23,934 nt of DNA, taken from positions 1-23,934 of the IMG/VR virus record IMGVR_UViG_3300045912_000924, one strand, 5' to 3'. This stretch comes from a virus. Made by a program: the position numbers and the translations under genes. This document shows, in pieces, positions 2,139-18,684 of the stretch (position 1 is its first letter; each line of letters begins with the position of its first letter). The notes beneath the pieces were generated by a model, which was not told where the DNA came from, did no database searches, and saw only the letters and a program-made list of their open reading frames with translations.

Positions 2139-2180
2139 ATGACCGTGGTGGACAGCTTCCGGCCCCGGAGGCTGTCGTGA
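2139..2180 (+). CDS. Possible 13-residue leader peptide
   Basis: ATG at 2139 opens a 13-codon ORF (MTVVDSFRPRRLS). Its TGA at 2178-2180 overlaps the GTG start of the sigma-like gene at 2177, the same GTGA arrangement used by several other gene pairs here. The ribosome site is weak (GAGCGG). It may be a real coupled leader or a chance ORF. Confidence 0.25.
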   Translation: MTVVDSFRPRRLS

Positions 2181-2761
2181 ACGGTACGCACGGGAAAGAT
2201 TTCGTTCTCACGAACTACGCTCGGAACCTCATTCAGGTCAAGGCCCGTCAACTCTGCCGCCGTCGGGAGTTCCTCCCTTCGGACCTGGCCGATCTCCAGC
2301 AAGAACTCTGGCTGATGCTCTGCGAACGCGCCGACGCCTTCGACCCGGCGAAGGCGTCGCTCGACACCTTCATCGACCGGGTGGTGAACTCGGCCGTCGG
2401 CGTGATCCTGCGGAACCGCCAGCGGCTCAAGCGGAACACCGGCGGGCCGGTCGTGTCTCTCGACGACACCGGCAACGACCCGACGCGGCCCAACTCGATG
2501 GCCCACGGCCTGTCGCCTGAACACCTCGTCCGGCGGACCGGCCACGAGCCGCGCGACGCGAGCGCGGATCGGGAAACGGCCGAGGCGGTCGAGGCCGCCC
2601 TCGCGCTCATGCCCGACGACGTGCGGGAGGTCGCCCGCCGATTGATGGGCGGCACGGTGAACGCCGTGTCCCAGGAGATGAACATCTCCCGCCGGGCCGT
2701 GCGGAAGGCGGCACGGGCCATCCGGGCGTACCTCGAACGGGCCGGGTTCGGAATCGGCTGA
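2177..2761 (+). CDS. Sigma-70-family-like RNA polymerase sigma factor
   Basis: A 194-residue protein with the two-domain plan of a small sigma factor. Residues about 36-85 resemble region 2 (DLADLQQELWLMLCERADAFDPAK, then a helix reaching VILRNRQR). Residues about 141-188 resemble region 4, with a helix-turn-helix (VNAVSQEMNISRRAVRKAAR). Between them lies a 50-residue polar linker. It would direct RNA polymerase to particular promoters, or act as a phage transcription regulator of sigma-like fold. The GTG start at 2177 has GGAGG five to six bases upstream. A promoter-like motif repeated elsewhere in the prophage starts only six bases after its stop, so it may serve the phage's own promoters; that link is inference. 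A non-sigma HTH regulator is the main alternative. Confidence 0.68.
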   Translation: MNGTHGKDFVLTNYARNLIQVKARQLCRRREFLPSDLADLQQELWLMLCERADAFDPAKASLDTFIDRVVNSAVGVILRNRQRLKRNTGGPVVSLDDTGNDPTRPNSMAHGLSPEHLVRRTGHEPRDASADRETAEAVEAALALMPDDVREVARRLMGGTVNAVSQEMNISRRAVRKAARAIRAYLERAGFGIG

Positions 2762-9408: not shown

Positions 9409-10746
9409 GTGAAGCCCTACCCCGGCAACCCGCGGCTCAACGACGATGCCGTCGATGCGGTCGCCGCCAGCCTGAAGGAGTTTGGCTTCCGCCAGCCGAT
9501 TGTGGTCGATACCGAGGGCGTCATCGTCGTCAGCCACACGCGCTACAAGGCCGCGCTGAAGCTCGGGCTGGAGAAGGTGCCCGTCCACGTCGCCAAGGAT
9601 CTGTCGCCCGAACAGATCAAGGTCTACCGCATCGCCGATAACCAGACGGCGTCGCTGGCGACGTGGGATTACGACCTGCTGCCGATCGAACTGGCCGGGC
9701 TGAAGGACGCCAATTACGACCTCGGCCTGCTCGGCTTCGATCCGGACGAACTGGCGAAGCTGCTCGATCCCACGCTCCGGGACGGTCTCACCGATCCCGA
9801 CGACGTGCCGGCCCCGCCCGATGAGGCCGTCACGCGGCCGGGCGACCTCTGGATCCTCGGCAGCCATCGCCTGCTCTGCGGCGACTCGTCGAAGCCCGCG
9901 GACGTGGACCGTCTGCTCGCCGGCGCGACCATCCACCTGGTGAACACCGACCCGCCTTACAACGTGAAGGTCGAGCCGCGGAGCAACAACGCCATCGCCG
10001 CCGGGCTTTCCTCGTTCCCCGCGACGAAGCAGGGAGCCATCGACGCGGCCGACGCCGGCGGCATGCACCACCAGGGCTTCGACCTCGCCCGCGACAAGAC
10101 CAAGTCGAAGCCGACCACCCGGAAGCTGCGACCCAAGGACCGGCCGCTGGCCAACGACTTCGTTTCGGACGAGGCGTTCGACCAATTGCTCGACGCGTGG
10201 TTCGGCAACATGGCCCGCGTGCTGGTGCCCGGACGCGGCTTCTACATCTGGGGCGGCTACGCCAACTGTGCCAACTACCCGCCGTTTCTCAAGAAGCACG
10301 GACTGTACTTCTCGCAGGCGATCATCTGGGTTAAAGAGCACCCCGTCCTGACCCGTAAGGACTTCATGGGCAACCACGAATGGTGCTTCTACGGCTGGCG
10401 CGAGGGCGCGGCCCACGTCTACCTCGGCCCGAACAACGCCACTGATGTGTGGAGCGTGAAGAAGGTCAACCCGCAGTCGATGATCCACCTCACCGAGAAG
10501 CCGGTCGAACTGGCGGTGCGGGCCATGCAGTACTCGTCCCGCGAGGGCGAGCACGTGCTGGACCTGTTCGGCGGCTCGGGCAGCACGCTCATCGCCGCCG
10601 AGCAGACCGGCCGCAAGGCGTTCCTGATGGAGCTCGACCCGCTCTACTGCGACGTCATCGTCACCCGCTGGGAGCAGTTCACCGGGCGGAAGGCCGAGCG
10701 GATTGCCGTGCCCCAGGCCGCATCAGCCGAGGAGGTGCCGGCATGA
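9409..10746 (+). CDS. ParB-like domain fused to a DNA N4/N6 methyltransferase
   Basis: From GTG at 9409 the frame gives 445 residues. Residues about 1-110 are a ParB/Srx-like domain (PVHVAKDLSPEQIKVYRIADNQTA; VSHTRYKAA where GHTR is usual). Residues about 145-430 are a methyltransferase with DPPY at 181-184, HLTEKPVEL at 360-368 and FGGSG at 387-391. The catalytic motif precedes the AdoMet-binding one, as in beta-class enzymes that methylate adenine N6 or cytosine N4. Phages use such enzymes to modify their DNA against restriction. The ancestral start appears to be ATG at 9379 (ATGA overlap, AGGAG upstream): it reads MKIEL, then TGA, then KITDVKPY in frame, where the family has tryptophan (TGG). 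GTG at 9409 has no clear ribosome site, so expression may be weak or lost. It ends in an ATGA overlap with the next gene. Confidence 0.82.
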   Translation: MKPYPGNPRLNDDAVDAVAASLKEFGFRQPIVVDTEGVIVVSHTRYKAALKLGLEKVPVHVAKDLSPEQIKVYRIADNQTASLATWDYDLLPIELAGLKDANYDLGLLGFDPDELAKLLDPTLRDGLTDPDDVPAPPDEAVTRPGDLWILGSHRLLCGDSSKPADVDRLLAGATIHLVNTDPPYNVKVEPRSNNAIAAGLSSFPATKQGAIDAADAGGMHHQGFDLARDKTKSKPTTRKLRPKDRPLANDFVSDEAFDQLLDAWFGNMARVLVPGRGFYIWGGYANCANYPPFLKKHGLYFSQAIIWVKEHPVLTRKDFMGNHEWCFYGWREGAAHVYLGPNNATDVWSVKKVNPQSMIHLTEKPVELAVRAMQYSSREGEHVLDLFGGSGSTLIAAEQTGRKAFLMELDPLYCDVIVTRWEQFTGRKAERIAVPQAASAEEVPA

Positions 10747-11195: not shown

Positions 11196-11804
11196 TCAAT
11201 CCTTGGTCGATTCGGTGTTGAAGGCGAAGTGGCCCGGGGAGGTCTTGCGGAACCGGGCCTTGGCCCCCTTCGTGGCCACCTCGCGCAGTATGGCAGCGTA
11301 AAGGGTGGCGGAAGGCGTCTTGCCGCCGGGGCTCGTCCAGAGGCTCCGTTCCGTCATGGCCTCGATCATCGCCTTGGTCGTCATCGGCTCGCCGGTCGTG
11401 GCCAGCACCTTGGCGGCGGCGTCGAGCGCACTGACCTTCTTCGGCTTCGGCTCGGGCTTGGCCTTCTTCGTCCGCGTCTTCGGTTCCGGCTTCGGCGCGG
11501 GCGGGGCGACCTTCACCGTCTGCTTGTCGCCGGCGACGATCCGGTAGGTGCGTTCGCTGGTGAGTTCGCACAGCTTGCGGGCGTGTTCGCCCTCCTCGGG
11601 CGTGCGGATCGTCTCGAAGTCGGACCAGGTGCCATCGTCGCAGATCTGCACCACGTCGTACGGCTCGTAGCCGGGGTACGGCGGCGCGACCGGGGCGGCC
11701 TCGGTCGCGGGCGGGGCGGGCTTCTTGGCGGGCTTGGTCGCCTTGGCGGTGGCGGGCTTCTTGGCCGGGGCCTTCTTGCCGGTGGTCTTCTTGGTCGCGG
11801 TCAT
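11196..11804 (-). CDS. HARE-HTH domain protein with a lysine-rich tail
   Basis: A 202-residue protein. Residues 1-35 are almost only K, A, P and T, like the tails of bacterial histone H1-like proteins. Residues about 40-100 are a small acidic region (PYDVVQICDDGTW). Residues about 102-124 are a second K/P-rich linker. Residues about 125-197 form a HARE-HTH winged helix (ALDAAAKVLATTGEPMTTKAM, then TPSATLYAAILRE and GHFAFN). HARE-HTH domains occur in chromatin, transcription and restriction proteins and have been proposed to read modified DNA. DNA binding is the safe inference. The ATG at 11804 follows GAGG. It runs against the phage operons, near the methyltransferase. Some Gemmataceae-type genomes carry similar tailed proteins, so it may be host-like. 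Confidence 0.72.
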   Translation of the reverse strand: MTATKKTTGKKAPAKKPATAKATKPAKKPAPPATEAAPVAPPYPGYEPYDVVQICDDGTWSDFETIRTPEEGEHARKLCELTSERTYRIVAGDKQTVKVAPPAPKPEPKTRTKKAKPEPKPKKVSALDAAAKVLATTGEPMTTKAMIEAMTERSLWTSPGGKTPSATLYAAILREVATKGAKARFRKTSPGHFAFNTESTKD

Positions 11805-11891: not shown

Positions 11892-12119
11892 CTACTGCTC
11901 GCTGCGGTCGAGGAAGGCGACCGCCTGGAGCAGCAGGGCGTTGACGTGGTTGATGTCGCCGACGTGGCCCCAGTGGATCGGGTGGTCGTCGTCGCCCGGG
12001 GCGGGCATGTCCTGCAGCAGGTCGGCGATCCGGTCGAGCAGGTCGCGGGCGACCAGGTGCGAGTTCTCGTAGGCGGCCTCGGCGGTCAGCTTCGGCTTGG
12101 GGGTCTTGCGGGGTTCCAT
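11892..12119 (-). CDS. Small hypothetical protein
   Basis: A 75-residue, mainly helical protein (ENSHLVARDLLDRIADLLQDMP, then HWGHVGDINHVNALLLQAVAFL) with no family I can name. CGGAGG lies seven bases before its ATG at 12119, which supports a real gene. It lies upstream of the HARE-HTH gene on the same strand, 87 bases away, and diverges from the terminase operon across a 122-base gap. Confidence 0.55.
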   Translation of the reverse strand: MEPRKTPKPKLTAEAAYENSHLVARDLLDRIADLLQDMPAPGDDDHPIHWGHVGDINHVNALLLQAVAFLDRSEQ

Positions 12120-12241
12120 GTTCGGGCCTCCGGTGGTGATGTTCGCGTGTTCATCAACGCGCTGTCACAGTTACCTCCGGTCCGCCCGACAGGGAAGCGC
12201 AGAAGGCGAGGATTCCGGCTGGTTTTTCAGGGATTTCCGCG

Positions 12242-12463
12242 ATGAACGACGCACGCGACGACACGCCCGCCGGCGGTCTGAACCCGAACGCCCTGTCTGT
12301 GGCCAACGCGGCTCGTCTCTTGTCGAAGGTGGGCGGCGAGCGGGTGACGGAGGAGATGATCCGGGCCGACCTGACGGCGGGCGCGCCGGCGAACACGGAC
12401 GGGACGATCAACCTGGTGCACTACGCGGCCTGGCTGGTGAAGGAGCGGAGCGGTGGCGACTGA
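12242..12463 (+). CDS. Small terminase-like protein
   Basis: A 73-residue protein immediately upstream of the large terminase and overlapping it (stop 12461-12463, next start 12453). It has a helical layout like a small DNA-binding domain: LSVANAARLLSKVGGERVT, then MIRADLTAG and YAAWLVKE. The same layout, including ARLL/CRLL, AG and AWLV, recurs in the first 60 residues of the large terminase. This suggests a DNA-recognition subunit for packaging, but it is shorter than most small terminases and the assignment rests on position and this internal similarity. The ATG at 12242 has only a weak AGGGA ribosome site. Confidence 0.5.
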   Translation: MNDARDDTPAGGLNPNALSVANAARLLSKVGGERVTEEMIRADLTAGAPANTDGTINLVHYAAWLVKERSGGD

Positions 12464-14771
12464 CCCGCGGCGACTGCGACCGAGCGAGCTCTGCCGGCTG
12501 CTGAACTCGACCCCGCTGGGCGAGGTGATCAGCGAGCGGCAGCTGTACCGCCATCGCACCCGCGCCGGCCTGCGGATCGGCGACGCCCGCCACGTCGATC
12601 TGCTGCGGTACGTCGCCTGGCTGGTGAGCATCCGGCACGCCCCGAAGCGCGAACCCGAGGCCGACCCCTATGAGGCGGTCAAGGAGCGGTCCCGCGCCCG
12701 CAACCTGGCGTTGTCGCTGGCCGGCCGCGACATCGGCGACCTGCCGAACGTGGCGGACCCGGGCCGCAAGGCGCGGGCGGCGGGCGACTTCCGCTTCTTC
12801 TGCGACAGCTACTTCCCGCTGACGTTCCACCTGCCCTGGTCCCAGGACCACTTGAAGGTCATCGCCCGCATCGAGCAGGCCGTGCTGCGCGGCGGGCTGT
12901 TTGCGATGGCGATGCCGCGCGGCAGCGGTAAGTCCACCATCTCGGAGTGCGCCTGCATCTGGGCCGTGCTGTACGGGCACCGCGAGTTCGTCTGCCTGAT
13001 CGGGTCGGACGAAGGCCACGCGATGGACATGCTCGACGCCATCAAGATGGAGCTCGACGGCAACGACCTGCTGCTCGCCGACTTCCCCGAGGCGGTTTTT
13101 CCGATCCAGGCGCTCGACGGCATCGCCAACCGCTGCAACGGGCAACTGTACAAGGGCGAGCGGACGCACATCGGCTGGACGGCCCGCGAGGTGGTGCTGC
13201 CGACGCTCAAGCCCGACGGCTGGCTCCAGTGCGACGACCTGCGGCCGTTCGTCCGCGACGACGGCACCTCGAAGGCCTCGGGCGCGATCATCAAGGTGGC
13301 GGGCATCACCGGCCGCATCCGGGGGATGAAGTACAAGCGGGCCGACGGCCGCACGGTGCGGCCGACGCTCGTCGTCCTCGACGACCCGCAGACCGATGAG
13401 AGTGCCCGCAGCCTGAGCCAGTGTGCGACCCGCGAAAGCATCCTCGCGGGGGCAGTGCTGGGGTTGTCCGGGCCGGGCACGAAGATCTCGGGGATCATGC
13501 CCTGTACGGTGATCCGGCCCGGCGACATGGCCGACGCCATCCTCGACCGGGACCGCCACCCCGAGTGGAATGGCCAGAGGACCAAGCTCGTCTACGCCTT
13601 CCCCACCGACGAGGCCCTGTGGAAGCGGTATGCCGAGGTCCGCGCCGAGAGCCTGCGGCAAGGCAACGGCGGCGAGGAAGCGACCACCTTCTACCGCGAA
13701 CACCGCGCGGCGATGGATGAAGGGGCCGTAGTGGCCTGGCCGGAGCGGTTCAACCACGACGAGTTGTCGGCCATCCAGCACGCGATGAACTTGCGGCTGC
13801 AGGACGAGGCGGCCTTCTTCGCCGAGTACCAGAACGAACCGCTGCCGGCCGAGACGGCCAGCGACGACGAACTGACCGTCGAGCAGATCGCCGGCAAGCT
13901 CAACCGGATGAAGCGCGGGGAGGTGCCGGTCGGCGTCAACCACGTCACCGCCTTCATCGACGTGCAGGGGAACTTGTTGTTCTGGCTCGTGGCCGGGTGG
14001 GAGGACGACTTCACCGGCTACGTCCTCGACTACGGCGCTTACCCGGACCAGAAGCGGCCGTACTTCACACTCCGCGACGCCCGGCCGACGCTCACCGGGA
14101 TCCTGCCCGGCGGCGTCGAGGCGGCGATCTACGCCGGGCTGGAGACGCTCACGGGCCAGATCCTCGGCCGGGCCTGGCGGCGGGACGACGGCGCGGACCT
14201 GCGGGTCGAACGGTGCCTGATCGACGCCAACTGGGGCTCCTCGACGGACGTGGTCTACCAGTTCTGCCGGCAGTCGGCGCATGCCGGGGTGGTGCTGCCG
14301 AGCCACGGGCGGTTCGTAGGTGCGTCGAGCCAGCCGTTCAGCGAGTACAAGCGGCGGCCGGGCGACCGGGTCGGCTTCAACTGGCGGATGCCCAACGTCC
14401 AGGGCAAGCGGGCGGTGCGGCACGCCCTCTTCGACACCAACTTCTGGAAGAGCTTCGTTCACGCCCGCCTGGCCGTGCCGATGGGCGAGCGCGGCTGCCT
14501 GTCGCTCTTCGGCGAAAAGCCCGAGACGCATCGCCTCTTCGCGGAACACGTCACGGCCGAATACCGCGTGAAGACCGAGGGGCGGGGCCGCACGGTGGAC
14601 GAGTGGAAGCTGCGGCCCGAACGCAGCGACAACCACTGGCTCGACGGCCTGGTCGGTGCGGCGGTCGCGGCCTCGATCCAGGGGGCCATCCTGCCTGGCA
14701 CCGGCGGTCGTGAGCCGGCCAAGCGCGGCCGGGTCAGCTTCAAGCAGCTTCAACAACGGACACGAAAATGA
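12453..14771 (+). CDS. Phage terminase large subunit (gpA family)
   Basis: A 772-residue packaging motor. Residues 1-60 form an HTH-like module similar to the preceding small protein. The ATPase has Walker A PRGSGKST at 155-162 and Walker B TLVVLDDPQ at 305-313. The C-terminal nuclease has acidic residues in FIDVQGNLLFW (about D503), LIDANWGSS (about D591) and HWLDGLVGAAVAA (about D731). It cuts phage concatemers and drives DNA into the prohead. Size and layout fit the lambda gpA type. GTG at 12453 overlaps the small gene's end. The stop overlaps the ATG of the zinc-ribbon gene. No damage is visible, unlike the replication genes. Confidence 0.88.
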   Translation: MATDPRRLRPSELCRLLNSTPLGEVISERQLYRHRTRAGLRIGDARHVDLLRYVAWLVSIRHAPKREPEADPYEAVKERSRARNLALSLAGRDIGDLPNVADPGRKARAAGDFRFFCDSYFPLTFHLPWSQDHLKVIARIEQAVLRGGLFAMAMPRGSGKSTISECACIWAVLYGHREFVCLIGSDEGHAMDMLDAIKMELDGNDLLLADFPEAVFPIQALDGIANRCNGQLYKGERTHIGWTAREVVLPTLKPDGWLQCDDLRPFVRDDGTSKASGAIIKVAGITGRIRGMKYKRADGRTVRPTLVVLDDPQTDESARSLSQCATRESILAGAVLGLSGPGTKISGIMPCTVIRPGDMADAILDRDRHPEWNGQRTKLVYAFPTDEALWKRYAEVRAESLRQGNGGEEATTFYREHRAAMDEGAVVAWPERFNHDELSAIQHAMNLRLQDEAAFFAEYQNEPLPAETASDDELTVEQIAGKLNRMKRGEVPVGVNHVTAFIDVQGNLLFWLVAGWEDDFTGYVLDYGAYPDQKRPYFTLRDARPTLTGILPGGVEAAIYAGLETLTGQILGRAWRRDDGADLRVERCLIDANWGSSTDVVYQFCRQSAHAGVVLPSHGRFVGASSQPFSEYKRRPGDRVGFNWRMPNVQGKRAVRHALFDTNFWKSFVHARLAVPMGERGCLSLFGEKPETHRLFAEHVTAEYRVKTEGRGRTVDEWKLRPERSDNHWLDGLVGAAVAASIQGAILPGTGGREPAKRGRVSFKQLQQRTRK

Positions 14772-14965
14772 AGCCCAGTCCTCCGCCGCGAAAGCCAATC
14801 GGCATCCGCTGTCCCCGCTGCGGCGGAGGGTGGTTCAAGACGACTCACACGGAACCGTTGTCCGATGGACGGATTCGTCGGCGGAAGAAATGCCTCGGAT
14901 GTGGCCGGAGGGTCGTCACGTTCGAGGCGATTCTCACCCCGACAACCGCCGACGGCCACATGTAG
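14768..14965 (+). CDS. Stand-alone zinc ribbon resembling the NrdR N-terminus
   Basis: A 65-residue basic protein with CPRC (C15, C18) and CLGC (C42, C45), an intervening DGRIRRRKKC segment and GRRVVTFE after the second pair. This order closely resembles the N-terminal zinc ribbon of the NrdR repressor, but the ATP-cone domain is absent. It probably binds zinc and nucleic acid. The ATG at 14768 overlaps the terminase stop as ATGA, so it is read with the packaging genes. Its role in phage is unknown; similar small zinc ribbons act as late transcription factors in other phages. Confidence 0.65.
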   Translation: MKPSPPPRKPIGIRCPRCGGGWFKTTHTEPLSDGRIRRRKKCLGCGRRVVTFEAILTPTTADGHM

Positions 14966-15290: not shown

Positions 15291-16754
15291 ATGTTCCGCT
15301 GGCTGGCCAACCTGATCGCCGGAAGTGACCGGTCGCCGTCGCGGCCGGCGACGGTGCGTGTCGTCCGCGCGCGGTACGACGCCGCCATCACCACCGACGA
15401 CAACCGCCGCCACTGGGCGGCCGCCGACGGGCTTTCGGCCAACGCCGCCAACAGCCCGGACGTTCGCCGCGTCCTGAGGAACCGCGCCCGCTACGAGGCC
15501 GCCAACAACAGCTACGCCAAGGGCATCGTCCTCACGCTGGCCAACGACGTGATCGGTACCGGACCGCGACTCCAGTTGCTCTCCGACGATCCCGAGACGA
15601 ACCGGCGGGTGGAGCACGAGTTCGCCCGCTGGGCCACCGCCGTGCGGCTGCCCGAGAAGCTCCGCACCATGCGGCTGGCGCGGGCCACCGACGGCGAGGC
15701 GTTCGCCGTCTTGACCAGCAACCCGCGGTTGCCGCTGCCGGTGCAACTCGACGTCCGCCTGATCGAGGCCGAGCAGGTGACCACCCCGGACCCACGGCTC
15801 GACGCGAGCGTGGACGGGATCGTCTTCGACGCGGCGGGCAACCCGGTCGAGTACCACGTCCTCCGCGATCATCCCGGGGAGGCGGCCTTCCGCCGCCCGC
15901 TGGCGTTCGACCGCGTGCCCGCTGAATCGGTGGTGCATTGGTTCCGCTGCGACCGGCCCGGCCAGGCGCGGGGCGTTCCCGACATCACGCCGGCCCTGCC
16001 GCTGTTCGCGCAGTTGCGGCGGTTCACGCTCGCAGTGCTGGCCGCCGCCGAGACGGCAGCCGACTTCGCCGGCATCCTCTACACCGACGCGCCGGCGAGC
16101 GGCGAGGCGGACGCCGCCGAGCCGCTCGAGCCGATCGAACTGGAGAAGCGGGCACTGGTGACGATGCCCGGCGGCTGGAAGATGAGCCAGTTGCAAGCGG
16201 AGCAGCCGACCACCGGCCACAAGGAGTTCGTCGAAGTCATCCTCAACGAGATCGCCCGCTGCCTGAACATGCCGTTCAACGTCGCGGCGGGCAACAGCTC
16301 GGGCTACAACTACGCGTCCGGCCGGCTCGACCACCAGACGTACTTCAAGGCGATCCGCGTCGAGCAGGCCCACCTCGAAGACGTGGTCCTCGACCGCGTC
16401 CTGGCCGCGTGGTTCGACGAAGCGGCCCTCGTCCCCGGTCTGCTGCCGCCCGGCCTCGGGCCGATCGCGGCCGTCGAACACGCCTGGTTCTGGGACGGCC
16501 ACGAGCACGTCGACCCCGCCAAGGAAGCCACGGCCCAGGCGACCCGCCTGGCCAACCACACGACCACCCTCGCCCAGGAGTACGCCCGCCAGGGCCGCGA
16601 CTGGGAGGACGCCCTGCGGCAGCGGGCCAAGGAGGTCGCGCTCATGACCGAACTGGGGCTCGTTGCCGCACCGGCCGCGCCCGCACCGACCGACCCCGAC
16701 GACCCCGAGGAGGACACCGAGCATGACGACGAACGGTCCCGAACCGACGCCTGA
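15291..16754 (+). CDS. Phage portal protein (lambda family)
   Basis: A 487-residue portal protein, the ring at one capsid vertex through which DNA enters and leaves. Typical features: an N-terminal RARYDAA segment, RNRARYEAANNSYAKG at about 63-78, DVIGTGPRLQ, the strand LIEAEQVTTP at about 162-171, VVHWFRCDRPGQARGVPD, and LNMPFNVAAGNSSGYNYASGRLD near residues 324-346. These match the lambda gpB portal family. It is followed by an overlapping protease-capsid gene. The C-terminus is acidic and proline-rich. No damage is visible. Confidence 0.9.
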   Translation: MFRWLANLIAGSDRSPSRPATVRVVRARYDAAITTDDNRRHWAAADGLSANAANSPDVRRVLRNRARYEAANNSYAKGIVLTLANDVIGTGPRLQLLSDDPETNRRVEHEFARWATAVRLPEKLRTMRLARATDGEAFAVLTSNPRLPLPVQLDVRLIEAEQVTTPDPRLDASVDGIVFDAAGNPVEYHVLRDHPGEAAFRRPLAFDRVPAESVVHWFRCDRPGQARGVPDITPALPLFAQLRRFTLAVLAAAETAADFAGILYTDAPASGEADAAEPLEPIELEKRALVTMPGGWKMSQLQAEQPTTGHKEFVEVILNEIARCLNMPFNVAAGNSSGYNYASGRLDHQTYFKAIRVEQAHLEDVVLDRVLAAWFDEAALVPGLLPPGLGPIAAVEHAWFWDGHEHVDPAKEATAQATRLANHTTTLAQEYARQGRDWEDALRQRAKEVALMTELGLVAAPAAPAPTDPDDPEEDTEHDDERSRTDA

Positions 16755-18684
16755 GAGCCTGTGGCTGACGGCCGAGATGCGCGTCGCACCGGCCGACGCG
16801 GGCAAGGCCCCCGACGGCACGCCCGCGCTGCCCCGGTTCCACATGGTCGCCTACACCGGCGGGGCCATGCGGCTGGAGGGGTGGAAGCACCCCGTCGTGG
16901 TCGACCTCGCGGGCCTGACCATCCCGTCGCAGTCCCGGCCGATCCGCGTCGGGCACAACACCGATCGGCTGGTCGGGCACACCCACGCCATCGCCCAGGA
17001 GGACGGGCGGCTGGTGGCATCCGGCGTGTTGAGCATCCCCGGCCCCGACACCGAGCGGGTGGTGGCCGGCTCGCGGAACGGCTTCCCCTGGCAGGCGAGC
17101 ATCGGCGCGCGGGTCGACCAGTACGAGTTCGTCAAGGACGGCCAGGTCGCGGCGGCGAACGGCCGCGAGTTCCCCGGCCCGGTCGTCGTCGTCCGCAAGT
17201 CCACGTTGGGGGAGATCAGCTTCGTCGACCTCGGGGCCGACGGCAACACCAGCGCGAGCGTGGCCGCCAAGGCCCAGGAGGGTTCGACCATGACCACCCC
17301 ATCCACTGCCACCGGCGGCCCGGACCTCGCGGCCGGCGACCCCGTACAGTCGCTTCGTACCGCGACCGCCGCCGAGGTGAAGCGGATCGCCGCGGTCCGT
17401 CGCGTCTTCGCCGGCACGCACCCCGAGGTGGAGGCCCAGGCCATCGAGGAAGGCTGGGACGAGACGCGGGCCGAACTCGACCGGCTTCGGCTCGACCGCC
17501 CGGCCGCCCCGGCGGTGGCCGGCACCCGCGCCGACGACCGCTTCCCGGCGGCCCAGATGCTCGAGGCCGCACTGGCCCTGACGCGGCCGCCGATGCAGCC
17601 CGAGCGGCACTACCCCGCCGACCTGCTCCAGGCGGCTGAGGACCGCTACGGCCCGGGGTTGAAGATCCGACAGGTCATCTACTTCGTGGCCCGGGCCAAC
17701 GGCTACACCGGGTCGCCGTTCATCGACAAGCGCAGCTTCGGCGACGCCATGTACTACGCCTGGACGCTGCCGATGACGGTGCGGGCGGCCGGGACGAGTA
17801 CGCTGTCGCTGCCCGCCATTCTGTCCAACCTCGCCAACAAGGAACTGCTCGACGCCTACCGCGAGGAGGACCAGACCTGGCGGGAGATCGCCATCGTCCG
17901 CTCGGTCAGCGACTTCAAGACGGTCACCAGCCACCGCCTGCTCGACAACATGGAGTACGAGGAGGTGGCCCCTGACGGCGAGATCAAGCACGGGACGGTG
18001 GCGGAGGAGACGTACACCCGGCAGGCGAAGACCTACGGCAAGATGTTCGCGCTGACGCGGGAGAAGATCATCGACGACGACATGAGCGCGTTCGACGACA
18101 TCCGCGACCGGCTGGGGGCCGGGGCGGCCCGCAAGCTCAACAGCGTGTTCTGGAAGGCGTTCCTCAACAAATCCTCGTTCTTCACCGCCCCGCGGGGCAA
18201 CTTCATCAGCGGGGCGAACACCGCGCTGGGCCTCGACGGGACCGGGCTGCAGGAGGGCATCCTGGCCTTCCGCAAGCTGAAGTCGCCGGACAAGAAGCGG
18301 ATCGGCGGGACGCCGACCATCCTGCTGGTGCCGCCGGAATTGCAGTTCGTCGCCCAGCGGCTCTACCAAAGCACGACGGTCAACACCGGCGGGGCGTCCA
18401 CCAAGGACAGCGTGCCCAACGACAACATCCACGCCGGCAAGTACCGCCCGGTGGTGTGCGACTGGCTGAGCGACACGGAGTTCGCGGGGCACTCGGCCAA
18501 GGCGTGGTACCTGTTCCGCAACCCCGGCGTGCTGGCCCCGGTGGCGGTGAGCTTCCTCGACGGGGTGCAGACGCCGACGGTGGAGGCGGCGGACGCCGAC
18601 TTCAACAAGCTGGGCATCCAGTTCCGCGGCTACTTCGACTTCGGCGTCGACCTGGCCGGCATCAAGGTCAAGGGCGAGGCGTGA
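16723..18684 (+). CDS. Fused prohead protease and major capsid protein
   Basis: A 653-residue protein from ATG at 16723, with GAGGAGGA eight bases upstream and overlap with the portal's end. Residues about 35-175 form a prohead protease domain: VGHN with H78, WQASIG with S126 and GEISFVDLGAD near 163-173, in the order of S78-type prohead proteases. Residues about 190-300 are a polar helical linker that could act as scaffold or delta domain. Residues about 300-653 are a capsid domain (TSHRLLDNMEYEEVAPDGE, FALTREKIIDDDMSAF, VPPELQFVAQRLY), resembling Mu-like gpT. The protease would clip the capsid during maturation. An internal ATG at 17290 has its own AGGAGG. Confidence 0.85.
   Translation: MTTNGPEPTPESLWLTAEMRVAPADAGKAPDGTPALPRFHMVAYTGGAMRLEGWKHPVVVDLAGLTIPSQSRPIRVGHNTDRLVGHTHAIAQEDGRLVASGVLSIPGPDTERVVAGSRNGFPWQASIGARVDQYEFVKDGQVAAANGREFPGPVVVVRKSTLGEISFVDLGADGNTSASVAAKAQEGSTMTTPSTATGGPDLAAGDPVQSLRTATAAEVKRIAAVRRVFAGTHPEVEAQAIEEGWDETRAELDRLRLDRPAAPAVAGTRADDRFPAAQMLEAALALTRPPMQPERHYPADLLQAAEDRYGPGLKIRQVIYFVARANGYTGSPFIDKRSFGDAMYYAWTLPMTVRAAGTSTLSLPAILSNLANKELLDAYREEDQTWREIAIVRSVSDFKTVTSHRLLDNMEYEEVAPDGEIKHGTVAEETYTRQAKTYGKMFALTREKIIDDDMSAFDDIRDRLGAGAARKLNSVFWKAFLNKSSFFTAPRGNFISGANTALGLDGTGLQEGILAFRKLKSPDKKRIGGTPTILLVPPELQFVAQRLYQSTTVNTGGASTKDSVPNDNIHAGKYRPVVCDWLSDTEFAGHSAKAWYLFRNPGVLAPVAVSFLDGVQTPTVEAADADFNKLGIQFRGYFDFGVDLAGIKVKGEA
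17276..17292 (+). promoter_or_regulatory. Internal ribosome site and ATG within the protease-capsid gene
   Basis: AGGAGG at 17276-17281 stands eight bases before an in-frame ATG at 17290, exactly between the protease and the linker-capsid part (M190). Starting here would yield a 464-residue protein without the protease. Nested starts that give separate assembly proteins are known in lambda (C and Nu3). Use of this one is inferred. Confidence 0.5.

Follow-up and report, generated by a model that had tools for sequence, protein, structure and literature searches.

A predicted winged-HTH module present both as a small protein and as the front of the large terminase in viruses of planctomycete bacteria

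The large terminase (TerL) of the virus described here begins with a module that also exists as a separate 73-residue protein, encoded by the gene just upstream. The DNA analyzed, referred to below as the window, is a stretch of 23,934 nt (23.9 kb; virus record IMGVR_UViG_3300045912_000924, positions 1 to 23,934). In the window and its relatives, the small protein (S) and the TerL N-terminus (T) are homologous in sequence, share a predicted order of structural elements, nearly always occur together in the same gene order, and differ in the charge of one predicted helix. To explain these findings, it is proposed, with a probability of roughly 0.6, that S and T are ancient duplicates of one winged-HTH module of the gpNu1, HTH_17, or MerR kind. 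In this model, T, as part of a motor whose nuclease is of the lambda gpA type, probably reads DNA, and S, encoded by the overlapping upstream gene, would be its free-standing partner, small-terminase-like but reduced. S and T would most likely form a one-to-one pair by way of helices 1 and 3, much as two gpNu1 DNA-binding domains do, and this mixed winged-HTH pair would bring the motor to the packaging site with no classical TerS ring involved. The features concerned are as follows.

12242..12463, + strand: S, 73-aa protein with an ATG start (open reading frame; BLASTP similarity to the front of TerL)
12453..14771, + strand: TerL gene, 772 aa, GTG start, with an ATPase region and a lambda gpA-type nuclease (phrog_38, phrog_15, PF20454)
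12453..12647, + strand: T, the copy of the module fused into TerL as residues ~1-65 (BLASTP, profile-profile match, predicted model)
12453..12463, + strand: 11 nt shared by the end of S (stop codon) and the beginning of TerL (GTG) (open reading frames; equal overlap in 132 of 149 loci)
12440..12445, + strand: AAGGAG within the 3' end of S, likely TerL ribosome-binding site (read from the sequence)
12347..12391, + strand: S helix 2 segment (VTEEMIRADLTAGAP), acidic (mean net charge -2.47, 160 rows)
12531..12575, + strand: T helix 2 segment (SERQLYRHRTRAGLR), basic (mean net charge +3.73, 164 rows)

In a PHROG profile search, TerL residues 87-467 match phrog_38 (E 1.7e-31) and residues 473-744 match phrog_15 (E 5.8e-28); Pfam places PF20454 GpA_nuclease at 471-744 (E 2.9e-24, above cut-off). 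With both the ATPase and the GpA nuclease regions present, the protein belongs to the gpA-nuclease TerLs. About 85 residues lie N-terminal to the phrog_38 region. S, the gene directly before TerL and overlapping it by 11 nt, occupies the position of a small terminase. The AAGGAG at 12440-12445, judged by its letters, is likely the ribosome-binding site of TerL; it lies inside S, so conservation of the S end may partly reflect what TerL needs of the DNA.

That S and the N-terminus of TerL are the same module had been postulated in an initial annotation of this DNA, and BLASTP, shuffled controls, and profile comparison all bear this out. S aligned with TerL residues 1-80 gives 26.6 bits (E 6e-6, for a single comparison), with 19 of 60 positions identical. 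The alignment score is 57; two sets of 20,000 shuffles each averaged 22 and peaked at 50 and 53, and none of the 40,000 shuffled sequences scored as high. When alignments made only of S and only of T are compared by hhalign, the probability is 93.6-96.6% and E ranges from 2.2e-7 to 5.8e-10, depending on the choice of rows; one such profile-profile comparison gives E 6.4e-8. The pairwise profile score (40.8) is far above its controls: the best of 200 column-shuffled T profiles reaches 16.5, and the best of 42 other 75-residue windows of TerL reaches 11.4. S and T can also be compared within single loci, where the Z score has a median of 6.4 over 152 loci (lowest 0.3), at least 3 in 142 and at least 5 in 117, with 10 below 3. 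Most of the spaced features pointed out earlier hold up. A24-R25-L26-L27 of S corresponds to C14-R15-L16-L17 of T, A46-G47 to A38-G39, and Y61-A-A-W64-L-V to Y53-V-A-W56-L-V, and the two genes do share 11 nt. The proposed pair of Glu with Val or Ile is weaker: G-E-V is kept among T relatives, but S has G-E-R-V, and its Glu is variable in the family. Taken together, these results make S and T almost certainly homologous.

Single-domain structure prediction, which had been suggested as a further check, yields the same order of elements in both: strand, helix, helix, strand, helix. The AlphaFold model of S (m193a5b891659, 73 residues, mean pLDDT 85.4) has E18, H20-31, H37-45, E57, and H58-69, and that of T (mec6a1de381af, TerL 1-99, mean pLDDT 84.6) has H10-18, H28-42, H50-61, and H72-94. 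The initial annotation had named differing folds, or a profile match no better than random helices, as grounds for abandoning its reading; given the matching element order and a profile match above controls, neither was found. Fold searches of the PDB are weak, with no Z above 4.5 for the Rex and RacA winged-HTHs or for EF-hands and a best Z of 4.2 for the S model, and no convincing match to S or T appeared among solved structures in structure or profile searches. We consider it very likely that both have the winged-HTH fold. Separately, positions 5-41 of S profile A3 weakly match the C-terminal part of the TrwC relaxase (1omh, E 0.003).

To which family does the module belong? The S of the window has no Pfam or PHROG match at meaningful E, with no PHROG family at E up to 1 and no match to the HTH_17 or MerR Pfam families. 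Likewise, 65 S rows give no meaningful Pfam or PHROG match (phrog_57 appears in one row only, E 0.29), and the P27 profile (PF05119) matches neither the window S nor these rows. Divergent S proteins, whose helices 1 and 2 are joined without a 6-residue insert, read as ordinary HTHs, matching HTH_17 at 1.3e-5 (25.8 bits, cut-off 27), HTH_20 at 6.4e-6 (26.5 bits, cut-off 27), and HTH_5 at 8.9e-5 (22.7 bits, cut-off 22). They also match phrog_57, 'terminase small subunit', the best four at 1.0e-4 to 5.6e-4 and three more at 0.0035-0.098; the part matched is the N-terminal stretch of lambda gpNu1, which itself is phrog_57 at 1.3e-76. However, excisionase and repressor PHROGs match divergent S about as well, and two other PHROGs outrank phrog_57 for the L327 protein; consequently, 'HTH' is a firmer label for S than 'TerS'. 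A direct link to gpNu1 was sought by hhalign and dropped, the probability being 0.26% for the S profile and 0.04% for the T profile; 80 gpNu1 relatives were near-copies and were left out.

The RLL motif in helix 1 and Y-x-A-W-L-V in helix 3 are found in S and T alike, whereas helix 2 sets the two apart. Over a 15-column segment, this helix is basic in all 164 T rows (mean +3.73) and acidic or neutral in 158 of 160 S rows (mean -2.47). Given this contrast, the idea of one unit used twice is right as far as descent is concerned, and DNA binding by S is something we only infer. In lambda TerS, helices 1 and 3 hold the dimer contacts of the DNA-binding domain, according to PMC6739421. When residues of S and T are matched to these contacts by eye, the pairing surfaces appear to be kept and the reading helices to have diverged, a pattern that suggests a mixed S:T pair. 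Such pairing is put forward tentatively, with rather less than even confidence.

The distribution of the two copies was followed through a TerL search, from which 80 loci were kept from viral contigs and 80 from species genomes; with the window's own copy (L081), this makes 161. By a count of titles, 74 of the 80 species-genome contigs bear planctomycete names, and the S/T-bearing viruses are viruses of planctomycete bacteria. S and T are both present in 149 of the 161 loci, and 132 of these have an S-TerL overlap of exactly 11 nt. T is found without S in six (L006, L007, L111, L125, L130, L134), in all of which TerL is at a contig edge, and neither is found in another six, four at an edge, one broken (L142), and one with 3.7 kb upstream (L077). 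A wider set, enlarged with distant TerLs from a sample of the phylum and from searches with divergent members, holds 215 loci; 36 were set aside (31 with less than 900 nt upstream, five with a TerL score below 300), leaving 179 scorable. Both copies are present in 162 of them: 160 in frame, L019, where TerL is in two frames with T in the first (2.6e-42), and L217 (reverse strand, about 1409-1924), where T lies in a separate frame overlapping that of TerL, which may be a genuine split or an assembly error of one base. T occurs without S in two of the 179, both damaged (L142 truncated, L231 a remnant), neither in 15, and S without T in none. The association has a Fisher P of 8e-19 over the 179 loci, a value that ignores relatedness. 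One locus counted as 'neither', L226, has a 68-aa upstream gene that resembles S at E 7.6e-4, missing the 1e-4 cut; the front of its TerL, which also missed that cut, might be a divergent T.

Across Planctomycetota, a TerL match with E no higher than 1e-10 occurs in 40 of 294 sampled genomes, some of the matches being distant TerLs without T. Among phage records with a TerL match, no match reaches T in the best 30 of 149, and none of the 149 attains 80% query coverage. Two planctomycete genomes (G009 and G012) have four T matches each and several loci with both copies, which suggests several related prophages per genome. In two loci, an insert of ~640-810 nt separates S from TerL. The one at L151:1184-1826 has the TerL start (IDPRRLRPTQLVQ) on both flanks, as if duplicated by the insertion; the other, of ~810 nt at L124:982-1793, bears minus-strand ORFs, one of which is presumably PIN-like, judging from a motif.

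Relatives without the module show what can stand in its place. S and T are absent from L219-L226, L229, and L230, whose TerLs are 38-62% identical, and also from L077, L342, L346, L348, and L352. In two of these, the gene before TerL is a PF05119 (P27-type) small terminase (L219, 1.3e-8; L222, 2.5e-17), and the upstream gene of L223, at 0.0043 and under the cut-off, is probably another. In L229-L231 there is a small upstream gene without a known family. In the last of these (L231, G290:C997), only the end of T remains in TerL and a different small gene replaces S, possibly a trace of module exchange, as if caught afterwards. Mainly from the replacement by a P27 TerS in relatives without T, few as these loci are, it is argued that S and T together do the job of a small terminase, and such a role for S as a small-terminase-like partner is probable. 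The original suggestion, that one DNA-binding unit now serves both as a small subunit and as a fused reader, thus stands in part. Homology, predicted topology, an old and near-constant co-occurrence, and a P27 TerS at the place of S speak for it; an acidic or neutral helix 2 in 158 of 160 S rows speaks against it, as does an S too short for a TerL-binding C-terminus of the lambda TerS type. Indeed, S ends 4 residues past its third predicted helix, without the C-terminal region that binds TerL and oligomerizes, and this is counted against the present proposal.

A T-like domain is also found in three HNH nucleases (L084, L184, L183). In the first two cases a T-bearing TerL is on the same contig, and the L183 nuclease lies ~11 kb from TerL in the same genome. 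T matches the HNH-borne copies with a probability of 99.8% (E 2.4e-28); the L084 protein matches Pfam HNH below the cut-off (E 0.0027). Upstream of TerL, HNH genes occur in L084, L162/L184, L011, L020, and L030, of which the last three have a similar HNH domain with no T seen, and no T-bearing HNH nuclease was found in the window. Recognition of DNA by T would fit both its basic helix 2 and this reuse. A T-bearing HNH nuclease would fit packaging, since the HNH protein gp74 promotes cos cleavage in HK97; it is also possible that it is a homing nuclease. In a tree of S and T (62 rows, 70 columns, midpoint root only, many forks unresolved), S forms one side of a branch (100/95), and the three HNH-borne copies form one clade (100/98) inside T. 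Duplication is favored over two recruitments, although the tree is rooted by midpoint only. A bolder version would have TerL, S, and sometimes an HNH nuclease share versions of the winged-HTH as an 'address' for one packaging site, chosen by a mixed S:T pair that is part of the motor, with no TerS ring; this is regarded as doubtful.

A conserved non-coding element lies just upstream of S, at 12163-12257 (model E 2.1e-12). Its model was built from 46 relatives, with seeds chosen via five hand-chosen words, and in 77 of 100 held-out loci it locates the element no more than 350 bp upstream of S, with 23 misses. Further copies exist in many relatives, 5-6 in each of the four viewed (L131, L141, L118, L104). 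The element was considered as a cos site, an idea dropped because of the multiple copies per relative, which at least in L131 seemingly precede short minus-strand genes. The element is read instead as a promoter-like site belonging to the gene at 11892-12119, on the minus strand. Elsewhere in the window, 2177-2761 (+) encodes a probable phage sigma factor (Sigma70_ECF 1.3e-5, phrog_1740 1.5e-10), and it is our guess that it serves promoters of this phage. Other neighbors are an N6/N4 DNA methylase with a fused ParB N-terminal domain (9409-10746, +); a basic protein with a HARE-HTH domain (1.6e-9), before S (11196-11804, -); a 65-aa zinc-ribbon protein resembling the N-terminus of NrdR (2.5e-9), directly 3' of TerL (14768-14965, +); and a 673-aa ORF (16663-18684, +) with similarity both to head protease and to major capsid families (phrog_4523, 3.4e-61), the two seemingly fused.

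Several other explanations of S have to be weighed. The opposite charges of helix 2 in S and T, together with the finding that S never occurs without T, could mean that S is an acidic cover for the basic helix of T, a DNA mimic or gate that holds TerL off DNA until assembly. However, in divergent S proteins the HTH helix is basic or mixed (e.g., SPKTVRAHIRRGLPL), which gives the ancestral S the look of a DNA-binding protein, and in two relatives a TerS occupies the place of S; an acidic cover is therefore unlikely. Alternatively, S might be a transcription or excision regulator that lies before TerL by chance, with packaging served by T alone. HTH_17, MerR, excisionase, and repressor families do match divergent S at TerS-like E values, but the overlap is fixed, the pairing of S with T is near-strict, and a P27 TerS is found at the place of S in L219 and L222, so that a chance neighbor seems quite improbable.

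Two further alternatives concern origin and fold. S and T could have been recruited separately from one winged-HTH superfamily, with no duplication, as the deep S/T split (100/95, midpoint root) and the weak likeness to T of deep S members such as L232 (Z 2.8) would allow. Yet the S and T profiles match mutually (E 6.4e-8) and neither matches gpNu1, and intermediates such as the S of L340 reach the T profile (1.2e-6); separate recruitment is consequently thought improbable. It has to be asked as well whether the three helices of S, with the loop N-x-D-G-T-I, make up an EF-hand-like protein and not a winged-HTH, given that the top Foldseek rows are S100/centrin for S (E 0.5) and troponin C/calmodulin for T (E 0.9). 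This is highly improbable: the Rex and RacA winged-HTHs score about equal to the EF-hands (Z up to 4.5), the Pfam matches listed for 65 S rows (E up to 1) comprise 19 families, none of them an EF-hand, the divergent members of the S family are HTHs, and an invariant Pro, P49, sits at what we take, from loop numbering, to be the first ligand position.

The proposal of an ancient S/T duplication with a mixed S:T pair gives a clear case of a recognition module that enters and leaves TerL, S and T being present in some relatives and a P27 TerS without T in others. The module has also passed to an HNH nuclease, and this TerL family is common in the Planctomycetota sample. As a review notes (PMC9611059), complexes of TerS with TerL tend to be transient and difficult to study. 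With one reader seemingly fused to the motor and the other of only 73 residues, reader, motor, and site would be testable with two small proteins. A search of the open-access literature brought up no description of TerL with a fused winged-HTH, nor did passages of PMC7824862, PMC7947584, and PMC11331095.

The closest known systems include the terminase of lambda (gpNu1 TerS, gpA TerL). There, too, TerL has a GpA-type nuclease and a small gene overlaps its front (lambda record positions 711-736), and the S family is weakly related to the DNA-binding stretch of gpNu1. The lambda complex consists of one TerL and two TerS (PMC9611059). In contrast to S, gpNu1 has 181 residues and a C-terminal TerL-binding part, and the TerL of the window, unlike gpA, bears a predicted winged-HTH of its own. 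P27-type small terminases (PF05119, phrog_83) occupy the same place before related TerLs (L219, L222, and probably L223), but they have no sequence relation to S, and the TerLs beside them lack T. In HK97, the HNH protein gp74 promotes cos cleavage (PMC9410871); HNH genes likewise lie upstream of TerL in some relatives of the window, although the L084, L184, and L183 nucleases differ from gp74 in carrying the T domain of TerL. A natural mixed winged-HTH pair is also known, RppC-TerS of PICI, which resets packaging specificity, according to PMC6739421. On that account, RppC-TerS resembles the pairing suggested for S and T in having two different winged-HTHs act as one reader; it differs in that RppC is satellite-encoded and hijacks TerS, whereas S and T are both owned by the phage and T is fused to TerL. 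Set beside these systems, S and T look like a pared-down, rearranged form of the standard means by which phages direct the motor to the DNA to be packed.
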